In this document: positions 52,448 to 57,006 of the stretch, piece after piece
Layout: each line of letters opens with the position of its first letter
Numbering within the stretch: position 1 is the stretch's first letter
DNA from: an uncultured Saprospiraceae bacterium
Lineage (GTDB): Bacteria; Bacteroidota; Bacteroidia; Chitinophagales; Saprospiraceae
Direction of reading: 5' to 3'
Length of the DNA: 57,006 nt
NCBI GenBank assembly: GCA_937969415.1
Contig: CALBWK010000110.1
Span: forward strand, 1 to 57,006
Position numbers and translations under genes: made by a program
Notes under the pieces: model-generated
What the model saw: the letters and a program-made list of their open reading frames with translations, nothing else
Told to the model about the DNA's origin: nothing
Database searches by the model: none

Positions 52448-54097
52448 CTAAGGCCGCTTACTATGCTGCTCTTCTAGCCACTCCTCAAACTCATCTAAGT
52501 CCATAGCATTGAGACAATAGGCAATAGGTAGACCTGCTTTCCTAGCGGCAGCAACGCCATAAGACGTATCATCAAGACCTGAAATACTATGTGCATCGGG
52601 ATTGATAGAGATGAGAACACCCTTAGATATTGCATAGTTAATCCATCTCCAGTCGATATCTAGTCTGTTGGGGTTGGCATTAAGCTCTAGTGCCACATTA
52701 TTAGCGGCACAAGCATCTATAACTTTAGCGGCATCTATTGGATAGCCAGGTCTGCTTAGAAGCAGTCGACCAGTCGGATGCCCCAGTATAGATGTGTAAG
52801 GGTTTTCTACTGCTGTAATCAACCGCTTGGTCGCCTTGGCTTTATCCATCTTGAGACTAGAGTGTACCGAGGCAACTATCAGGTCTAGGTCTGCGAGTAC
52901 GTGGTCAGGATAGTCCAAGTTGCCATTGGCGAGGATATCTGATTCTGTTCCTGAAAACAATTTTATCTCATCCTCTTCTTGGTCTAGTTCTCGGATTTCA
53001 TCAAGCTGGGCATATAAGCGATCTATAGTTAATCCATTGGCATAGAAGGCAGACTTAGAGTGATCGGTGATAACAAAGTACTCATAGGATCTATCTAGTG
53101 CTGCTTCTAGCATTTCGCCTACCGTCTGCAATCCATCACTATACGTCGAGTGGTTATGTATACATCCTCTTAGATCCGATTGATCAATTATATTTTGGGC
53201 GCCGGGATAGTTATCTATGTAATCTAGATTGTCGGACTCTCTATATTCCGGAATGTAATAAGGCAGCTCATTTTCTAAAAAGACAGCTTCTTCATCAGCG
53301 TAAGCTTTGTCTTCTATATTTAAGTTATTCCAAAACTCAGGTGCAGAGGAGAGCTGTACTTTTTCCTTTACAAATCTATCGTCTTGGGTATGGGTAAATT
53401 GGAGTTTGATATTGTGCAGTCGATAACCCTCTTTCTCATCTTCTATAATGTCAGGGTGCGCTTTGCAGAAAGCCTTTATTACCGACGCTTCACTTGTAGT
53501 CAGAATGTCGACCTGTTCTATAGTACTACACTTTCTTGCCACTTCTCCTACTACAGTATGCCGGTTGTCCGGTAGGGCTTCATTAAGATGATCAATCAGT
53601 TGGCCAACAGTGCGCTGTGCCACTGCATATAGCAACTTATCCGCTGAGTCAAGATGGTACTCTAGCTGCTCCTTGAGGGAAGCCTGAGATTTCTCTCCGA
53701 ACCCTTTGACATCTTTGAGTCTGTTCTCATTGATGGCGTAGAGCAATTCACCGACGGATTCTATTTCTAACTCCTTCCATATGACGGCGATTTTTTTGGG
53801 TCCGAAACCTTTGATGCCGAGCATCTCAACAATACCAGAAGGCGTCTGATCCAGATAGCGATTAAGCGTTTGCATCTCTCCTGTCTCTGCCAGTTCTAAG
53901 ATTTTAGCCTTAATGGCCTTGCCGATACCTTTGATATTGGCCAGTTCTTCTTCGGGTAGCTCTATAATTTTATCAGGCCACTTTTTTATAGTCAGATAGG
54001 CATTGGTGTATGACCTTGTTTTAAAGGGGTTTTCGCCGTGCAGCTCTAGTAGTTTACCTAGTAGGTTGAATTTATTGGCTAGTTCTCTATTTTCCAA
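52448..54097 (-). CDS. PolX-family protein: HhH / degenerate polymerase domain + PHP domain
   Basis: HhH repeats GIGKAIKAKIL, KGFGPKKIAVIW; VGEVARKCSTIEQVDIL; PHP motifs HNHSTYSDG, VITDHS, GHPTGRLLL, INPDAHS. Confidence 0.88.
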   Translation of the reverse strand: MENRELANKFNLLGKLLELHGENPFKTRSYTNAYLTIKKWPDKIIELPEEELANIKGIGKAIKAKILELAETGEMQTLNRYLDQTPSGIVEMLGIKGFGPKKIAVIWKELEIESVGELLYAINENRLKDVKGFGEKSQASLKEQLEYHLDSADKLLYAVAQRTVGQLIDHLNEALPDNRHTVVGEVARKCSTIEQVDILTTSEASVIKAFCKAHPDIIEDEKEGYRLHNIKLQFTHTQDDRFVKEKVQLSSAPEFWNNLNIEDKAYADEEAVFLENELPYYIPEYRESDNLDYIDNYPGAQNIIDQSDLRGCIHNHSTYSDGLQTVGEMLEAALDRSYEYFVITDHSKSAFYANGLTIDRLYAQLDEIRELDQEEDEIKLFSGTESDILANGNLDYPDHVLADLDLIVASVHSSLKMDKAKATKRLITAVENPYTSILGHPTGRLLLSRPGYPIDAAKVIDACAANNVALELNANPNRLDIDWRWINYAISKGVLISINPDAHSISGLDDTSYGVAAARKAGLPIAYCLNAMDLDEFEEWLEEQHSKRP

Positions 54098-54768: not shown

Positions 54769-55347
54769 ATGAAACACTTACTTTTTTTTGTTGCTCTATT
54801 TGGATTGATATCGTGCAACAGTTCTGGTGGGGGTGGAGCCGCAACAACTCTAGAAGGTTACCAGACAGAAAATGTCGGCGGTGGTGTCACTAAAGCATTC
54901 AAAAAAGACGCCTCAGGCAATTTTACAGAGGTTGGCTTTTTGGTCAATGGTGTCAAGAATGGCGCTTGGATGACTTATTATGATGGAGACGAAGCAGGTA
55001 AGATTAAGACCTATGCCGCGTATACAAATGGTGCACTTAATGGCCCTTATTACGAGTATAATAATCGAGGGCAAATCGAGACAGAAGTCAATTATGTCAA
55101 TAATCAATACGATGGTATAGTATCTAGCTATAAGTTTGGCAGGCCCACTGTTACTAAGACCTATAAAGGTAATGAGCTCAATGGTCCTTCATATGATTAC
55201 TTCGGAGATGGCAAGCTGCAGAAGGAAACCAACTTTAAAGATGGTAAGCAGCACGGTATAATGACCTGGTATAATGAGGAAGGGAAAAAGACAATGGAGT
55301 ATGAGTACAAGAACGGAACAAAAATATCTGGAGGAATCGTCAATTAA
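54769..55347 (+). CDS. MORN-repeat / YwqK-like lipoprotein
   Basis: Lipobox FGLISC; repeats NGVKNGAWMTYYDGD, NGALNGPYYEYNNRG, DGKQHGIMTWYNEEGK. Confidence 0.85.
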   Translation: MKHLLFFVALFGLISCNSSGGGGAATTLEGYQTENVGGGVTKAFKKDASGNFTEVGFLVNGVKNGAWMTYYDGDEAGKIKTYAAYTNGALNGPYYEYNNRGQIETEVNYVNNQYDGIVSSYKFGRPTVTKTYKGNELNGPSYDYFGDGKLQKETNFKDGKQHGIMTWYNEEGKKTMEYEYKNGTKISGGIVN

Positions 55348-55505: not shown

Positions 55506-57006
55506 ATGCGCTTATCCTCTCTTGTCTCTAAGGACTTTGTTCTTAATCCCACCACGAATGATTACATCCTTAAATCTCGCAATAGGGAGCACGCATTAAT
55601 GACCAGCTTTTGGTCCACATACGACCGAGTTGCTGAAGGCCAAAAAGTCGTCCTTGTAACAGATAAGGAGGATGATCTCATATATCTCAACTATCTCCTT
55701 TCTCGCTATGGTCTGAGAGAACTTAGTTTGATAATCAGTGATGACGATCAACTCAACCTCAATTATTTTCACGCAAAAAAAATAGAGGAAGAAAAACTGA
55801 AACCTCGATTAAGTGGGGAGCTAGCACACAGTACTCAACTTTCTACGACGGTCACGCAGCTTATCTCTGAGGCCAATAAAGCCTTATCGCATCTACAAGC
55901 GCCTATTCTGGGTAATTATTCTGTTAGCAATATTAATGACCAATTAGAATCAGGGCCGTACAAGCACATAGATGTATCAGAGCAACTGCTCAAGCCTCCT
56001 TTTAATTTTAAGGACTATAAAAAGAGAAGAGATTTCTACGAAGAGATAGAAACCAAGTATGACTTGACCTTTGAGTATGCTAAGCAACAAGATCCATTTA
56101 ATGGAACCCTAGAAGAACTAGGAGACGCCTCTTCGTTGGTGACTGTGTTGCAAGATTTTCTTGATAATGCTGAATCTGTCAAGCAGAGATACGAGCACTT
56201 AGAAAATCGAGTTGCAGAGGAGTTATCAGCAAATTACGCTGATGAAGGTCAACTCAAAGCTGCACTAGAAATAAAGTTAATGCGTATGACCCCTGCGGTA
56301 AAAGGCGGTGATACGACCAAAGCCTTTCTCAAAGAGGTTAATCAATTGACCGAAGAGTTGATTGGACTAAATGTGTTCAAGGAGGTTCCAGAGCGCAAAA
56401 GTCTTTCCATTTTTCATCAGAAACAAAACTTGTTGCATCTCATAAGTTTTGTAGAATATGGCCTTTTCTTTCTAGAAGATAATAAGCAATACATCAAGTG
56501 GAGAGCTTATTCTGCACAGATGACACCACAGGATTATAAACTTATAAATTACCTAACAGGCCAAAATCAGTTCTGGGGCACAGCTTTCAAGAATTTGTAT
56601 CTGCAGTATTATCTGGCACATACTAAGCCTGCACTCAGATCGGCGAGTAGAGCTATAGATAAACTAGATGTACAAGCCAAGCAGCTTTTGGAAAAGTTTG
56701 CAGCGCCACTTCAGAAAAAGTATTTTGCCCATAATATGAAATGGCCCACAGCTCTGACCAAGTGGAGTACATTTCTTGCAGAAGCAGGGCACGACGTAGT
56801 CCAGCGTTTTCCTATCTTGATAATGAGCAAGGCCAACTACGAAAAGAATGTAGAAAAAATGGCCTACATAGACACTTTCGTTTTTGTCAATACTTGTCCC
56901 AAGATCTTGCATACAGAGAGCTGGCTGTCTAACTTGGTGATAGGCTATGATTCCGGATTTGTATTAAATTCTGAGGCATTACAGAATCTTCAACCAGAAG
57001 TCGCAG
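55506..57006 (+). CDS. Large partial ORF, SF1-helicase-like but with degenerate NTPase motifs; truncated by window end
   Basis: Uninterrupted 500 codons from ATG 55506 (MRLSSLVSKDFVLNPTTNDYILKSRNREHALMTSFWSTYDRVAEGQKVVLVTDKEDDL...) to the window end; absent from the supplied ORF track because no stop is reached. Confidence 0.8.
   Translation, partial: MRLSSLVSKDFVLNPTTNDYILKSRNREHALMTSFWSTYDRVAEGQKVVLVTDKEDDLIYLNYLLSRYGLRELSLIISDDDQLNLNYFHAKKIEEEKLKPRLSGELAHSTQLSTTVTQLISEANKALSHLQAPILGNYSVSNINDQLESGPYKHIDVSEQLLKPPFNFKDYKKRRDFYEEIETKYDLTFEYAKQQDPFNGTLEELGDASSLVTVLQDFLDNAESVKQRYEHLENRVAEELSANYADEGQLKAALEIKLMRMTPAVKGGDTTKAFLKEVNQLTEELIGLNVFKEVPERKSLSIFHQKQNLLHLISFVEYGLFFLEDNKQYIKWRAYSAQMTPQDYKLINYLTGQNQFWGTAFKNLYLQYYLAHTKPALRSASRAIDKLDVQAKQLLEKFAAPLQKKYFAHNMKWPTALTKWSTFLAEAGHDVVQRFPILIMSKANYEKNVEKMAYIDTFVFVNTCPKILHTESWLSNLVIGYDSGFVLNSEALQNLQPEVA

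Follow-up and report, generated by a model that had tools for sequence, protein, structure and literature searches.

The 3' end of the analysed window (the whole 57,006-nucleotide stretch of Saprospiraceae DNA, contig C110) raises the question of what a protein with the shape of an SF1 helicase can be doing when both of its Walker motifs are replaced. The ORF in question (55506-57005, + strand) runs without a stop for 500 codons up to the end of the contig (57006). This feature (55506..57006, +) holds the first 500 of the 667 codons of a motorless protein derived from an SF1 helicase. The source genome comprises 3.84 Mb in 255 contigs, one of which, C137, begins with 9 bases shared with the window's end (...AAGTCGCAG). 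Extension of the contig in the 3' direction, which the original prediction had proposed, gave both the end of the gene and the adjoining nuclease-like gene: C137 supplies the final 169 codons (C137:3-512), and the complete gene overlaps a downstream PF13588 HSDR_N nuclease-like gene by 4 bases. A complete homologue of 667 aa in another MAG (L002) is 84% identical and lies in the gene order of the window; there too the next gene, which overlaps it by 4 bases, encodes an HSDR_N_2 protein of 147 aa. Directly upstream of the ORF is a MORN_2/YwqK-like lipoprotein gene (54769..55347, +), which marks the same slot in genomes with long and with short forms of the protein. The divergent neighbour beyond it (52448..54097, - strand; 549 aa), which from our own reading of its sequence we take to be PHP/polymerase-X-like, has the same position in L002 and L015. 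On C137, the HSDR_N gene is followed by genes that we read as encoding a threonine-dehydrogenase-like epimerase and then a TonB-dependent receptor. A chance ORF is ruled out by the homologue in the same order and by dN/dS; open to the contig end, continued on C137 and evolving at low dN/dS, the predicted ORF is real.

Both peptides quoted in the original prediction (GQKVVLVTDKEDDLIYLNYLLSRYGLRELSLII and FPILIMSKANYEKNVEKMAYIDTFVFVNTC) are present, and its two pattern matches were right in detail. In the alignment, the Walker A slot (residues 24-31; 55575..55598, +) reads SRNREHAL where intact relatives have GPPGTGKS, so that the motif is lost, while the RecA1 strand and helix that follow Walker A are kept (residues 45-77, GQKVVLVTDKEDDLIYLNYLLSRYGLRELSLII; 55638..55736, +) and align by hhalign with NGGRCLVVCEKKSALDVLYNNLQKLGLDELAVII of the intact helicase L138. 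The second peptide, FPILIMSKANYEKNVEKMAYIDTFVFVNTC, is located at residues 435-464 and contains the Walker B slot (residues 455-462; 56868..56891, +), which reads IDTFVFVN in place of FDVVIFDE, its acidic residues gone. The patterns [GA]xxxxGK[ST] and hhhhDE are absent from the ORF's 500 residues and from the full-length homologue, where no intact Walker A or B occurs elsewhere, and RecA2 with motifs III-VI is absent between the Walker B slot and a C-terminal REase remnant. The most conserved part of the helical insertion, at residues 329-370 (Y..W....L......I..L......W..F..WYL...L; 56490..56615, +), is shared by long and short forms, and codons 301-400 have the lowest dN in the gene.

Profile comparisons connect the ORF to SF1 helicase-nucleases. 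As a query against 150 Saprospiraceae genomes, it gave matches in seven genomes, some of them inside proteins of 1223-1276 aa, two of which match AAA_11 and the C-terminal MTES_1575 REase-like domain. Full-length relatives with intact motifs (GPPGTGKS, FDEAS), from Saprospiraceae and other Bacteroidia families, match AAA_11, AAA_12 and MTES_1575 and are distant members of NCBIfam ProA and Hhe and of PADLOC PDC-S37. A profile of 32 short forms aligned with the intact SF1 profile at a probability of 99.8% (E 9.5e-30) over canonical columns 294-900, a span that begins shortly before Walker A and ends at Walker B, and the ten short forms of the window's genus and the L002 relative did so by themselves at 98.6% (E 8.8e-16). 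Reversed-sequence controls gave 0.1-5% (own genus reversed, 1.1%), with one exception of 29% for all short forms reversed against the long profile. Over its C-terminal ~100 residues, the short form matches the latter half of the REase domain (91% against intact and 97% against long forms). Missing from the short form are the N-terminal region before Walker A, Walker A, Walker B, all of RecA2 (motifs III-VI) and the first half of the MTES_1575 domain. NCBIfam and PADLOC gave no match to the short form, and Pfam gave nothing relevant; even long forms score under the NCBIfam Hhe and ProA cut-offs. A PDB sequence search with a mixed profile gave no match, and an AlphaFold model from two sequences was unusable (pLDDT 31), so we infer the retained fold from profiles only. 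Judged by these profiles, the ORF is a pseudohelicase, what remains of a DUF4011/Hhe/ProA-type SF1 helicase-nuclease from Saprospiraceae, and keeps the RecA1 frame, a helical insertion of ~500 residues and the last part of a degenerate C-terminal REase domain. The comparison thus bears out the prediction of a helicase-shaped protein whose Walker A and B are replaced. Literature searches returned nothing on this pseudohelicase family.

Loss of the motor has not been accompanied by loss of selection. Between the window and L002, dN/dS over 500 codons is 0.036 (NG86) or 0.069 (YN00), exact ratios that are rough because dS is near saturation but that are still far from 1. Seven neighbouring genes have values of 0.02-0.10, as does every computable 100-codon block of the gene itself, and its 3' part gives 0.055-0.076. 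Given a dN/dS of about 0.04-0.07, the gene is functional. In the main short group, 93-100% of the sequences retain W332, W357 and the REase-derived G627. The motorless protein is therefore under selection, as dN/dS and residue conservation both show, and the proposal of an inactivated helicase stands, the motifs having been lost while selection persists. Long forms without Walker B are also under purifying selection (L033 versus L039, dN/dS 0.055-0.063). A pseudogene is ruled out by dN/dS and by intact frames in at least 56 genomes.

The original prediction further suggested that the ORF may be a helicase paralogue that partners an active helicase, and on the paralogue the genomes disagree. 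The slot after the MORN gene is occupied by the short form in the window, L002, G135, G144 and G043, and by long forms at loci L013 and L014; a 1253-aa helicase directly follows the MORN gene in G030, and in G058 a long helicase is encoded on the same strand, 1.7 kb away from that gene. The pseudohelicase's own genome yielded no further member of its family; the closest other helicase there is a distant relative, a 637-aa IGHMBP2-like protein with an intact GPPGTGKT on contig C184. Because the slot holds a full-length protein in other Saprospiraceae and an intact copy was not found in the genome, the ORF is not a paralogue but holds an orthologous position; that it is a paralogue of some intact gene of its own genome is ruled out, none being found there. 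This setting also bears on whether the motorless forms serve in anti-phage defence, as decoys or inhibitors of phage or mobile-element nucleases rather than as nuclease subunits. Such a role would fit the fast sequence change and the matches of full-length relatives to ProA, Hhe and PDC-S37, but the slot is a fixed chromosomal one among housekeeping genes without defence neighbours, purifying selection is strong and the short form has no PADLOC match, all of which make a defence role unlikely.

Across the family, the motor is found in all stages of decay. By their motif columns, 21 of 65 long forms have both Walker motifs, 29 have A only, 1 has B only and 14 have neither; Walker B is kept in 27 if EE is counted as DE. 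Parsimony among the long forms alone gives 8 changes of Walker A and 12 of Walker B. Neither motif is present in 30/32 short forms. Two full-length helicase-nucleases of 1221-1223 aa, L014 (G058) and L024 (G153), also have neither. A P-loop relic, GNKSSGKS, is found at residues 25-32 of the short form L108 (G077) and a near P-loop, GQKMSGRS, in the short form L100 (G053); these two are extant intermediates in the loss of the motor. A profile built from 22 short forms detected motorless frames of 631-835 aa in at least 56 genomes from 23 Saprospiraceae genera. None was found outside Saprospiraceae among 395 genomes drawn from the class, in which non-family matches covered only the RecA1 part and the insertion, nearly all in much longer proteins. 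In the window's genus the short form is present in 11/14 genomes. Empty sites, at which the MORN gene abuts HSDR_N and the pseudohelicase gene is missing, were seen in G032, of the window's genus (L183, 2146-3308), and in G004, of another genus (L186, 4012-5192).

The decay series, the fast evolution evident from long end branches and the complete loss in G032 and G004 could together be read as a helicase-nuclease relic dying slowly on its way to deletion. We consider this very unlikely, since dN/dS stays at 0.04-0.07 along the gene, 3' part included, intact frames are spread over all those genomes and genera, and the two tryptophans and the REase-derived glycine are held in the main short group.

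Short forms are only 12-31% identical across genera and come mostly from fragmented MAGs; this low identity makes the alignment and tree rough. On its starred branches, a careful tree requires the short form to have arisen four times. L107 groups with the canonical intact L138 (100/99), and the g7 group falls inside the long forms (99/91). In an AU test of 16 short rows, a single clade for the 15 left after L107 was not rejected (p 0.16), so a separate origin is claimed only for L107 and probably for the g7 group. Apart from L107, repeated truncation is therefore likely rather than proven. Forms of probably separate origin are L107/L188 (G056), L092/L093/L096 (g7) and L144 (G125), which are motorless, 711-840 aa long and without an HSDR_N neighbour. 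The same tree, with the main short group as sister to all long forms, might suggest that truncation is ancestral and that long forms gained the motor. This reading is scarcely credible, being already contradicted by the outgroup, in which intact GPPGTGKS helicases from other families are full length and align with the long forms over 1210 columns; the P-loop relics of L108 and L100 and the C-terminal REase remnant of the short form also argue against it.

The active helicase suggested as possibly lying just downstream is not there. No active RecB/AddA-type helicase-nuclease gene lies next to the pseudohelicase; the next gene encodes the 147-aa HSDR_N protein instead. A two-component complex still seems likely, with a nuclease rather than an active helicase as the partner. 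In 20 genera, HSDR_N is the next gene after the short form, at about -50 to +84 bp and often overlapping, and it adjoins 0/65 long forms; more divergent short forms precede it in G042 and G044. It is a plain PF13588 (HSDR_N_2) member (E 2.2e-26) with D-ExK intact, and residues E65, D78, E93-x-K95, Q108 and Y112 (alignment numbering) are the same in all 27 short-form and all 18 other sequences compared, so that the neighbour of the dead motor is apparently a live PD-(D/E)xK nuclease. HSDR_N was present in 40/40 genomes tested and, among control genomes, also in Bacteroides. In long-form Saprospiraceae it has another location, frequently adjoining a gene for a threonine-dehydrogenase-like epimerase. 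The HsdM/HsdS and full HsdR of a type I restriction system were not found beside the HSDR_N gene, the neighbours being the epimerase and the TonB-dependent receptor. Stand-alone HSDR_N proteins of 145-170 aa occur at L153-L182, with a holA-like gene adjoining in L166 and L169. In several short-form genomes, HSDR_N is followed by a protein of 110-126 aa (..LLIYASYADYEFS..; L185 1552-1884, L193 256-603, L194 3847-4185), possibly a third operon member.

These data lead to a proposal that we hold at roughly even odds (about 0.5), from gene coupling and by analogy with RecC, AddB and the XPF helicase-like module: the short form may be an ATPase-dead, ATP-independent nucleic-acid-binding scaffold for the HSDR_N nuclease. 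The ancestor would have had motor and nuclease fused in one helicase-nuclease. After the motor was lost, the RecA1 frame and helical insertion would have been kept as a DNA- or RNA-binding scaffold, which would hold or position the small PD-(D/E)xK nuclease from the translationally coupled next gene. The outcome would be a motorless nuclease of two subunits, in which complex formation, nucleic-acid binding and control of cleavage by the pseudohelicase are all predicted. That the frame stayed under strong selection after motor loss, usually beside an intact nuclease gene, suggests that it has taken on another role.

In the main rival reading, the short form binds or senses nucleic acid without a motor, alone or with another partner, HSDR_N being its neighbour by descent from an old rearrangement; the adjacency could indeed be one inherited arrangement. 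Long-form genomes, as well as G032 and G004, carry an intact HSDR_N without the pseudohelicase, which it thus does not need. Short forms lack an HSDR_N neighbour in g7, G125 and G056, which probably have other origins, and also in G041 and G113, which carry the main kind; full-length motor-dead forms such as L014 lack one too. A mere neighbour by descent is harder to reconcile with a tight, often overlapping junction kept in 20 genera while other neighbours change, and we regard the rival as possible rather than probable. Equally tentative is a wider claim that would build on the HSDR_N scaffold: that the family has repeatedly stripped an anti-phage-type helicase-nuclease down to a motorless scaffold, which one lineage rebuilt, with the universal HSDR_N, as a two-gene ATP-independent nuclease complex.

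Motor-dead helicase folds such as those of RecC, AddB and XPF are important machine parts, and the steps of motor loss are usually lost. Here the protein encoded in one slot ranges, across a family, from intact through half-inactivated and fully inactivated to truncated, so that the question of what stays selected after motor loss becomes testable. The proposed complex would give a candidate function to an HSDR_N protein found in every Saprospiraceae-type genome tested and in the Bacteroides control, and, if true, would be a nuclease machine of a new kind, each step towards which survives in an extant intermediate. The findings also carry a caution that anti-phage helicase homologues without a motor may be mistaken for defence genes. 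The nearest known systems are Hhe (NF042953), ProA (NF058533) and PDC-S37: the short form is homologous to them in the RecA1 frame, the large helical insertion and the C-terminal MTES_1575-type domain, and their full-length members fill the same slot in other Saprospiraceae. The short form differs from them in its length (667 aa, not 1200-1900), its partial REase domain and the separate nuclease gene beside it. That neighbouring gene is itself an ordinary member of the stand-alone HSDR_N_2 (PF13588) proteins of Bacteroidota, which in long-form Saprospiraceae have no pseudohelicase beside them.

The short form is outside the RecC, AddB and XPF families. RecC and AddB are the inactive helicase-like subunits of RecBCD and AddAB (PMC1185551, PMC4824097), and in RecC even an inactivated nuclease-like domain has been redeployed (PMC1185551). 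Like the short form, both are helicase-derived and keep the fold after loss of motor function, RecC together with its inactivated nuclease-like domain. Their partner, however, is an active helicase subunit, whereas the short form has no adjacent active helicase gene, and RecA2 is remodelled in RecC and AddB but deleted in the short form. The helicase-like module of XPF-ERCC1 is an inactive helicase frame that serves a nuclease (PMC7048804); unlike the short form, XPF belongs to SF2, keeps both RecA domains and has its nuclease fused to it in one polypeptide. Utp25 is also helicase-like and has been called a pseudohelicase (PMC9539457), but it is a eukaryotic RNA-processing protein from a family unrelated to the short form.
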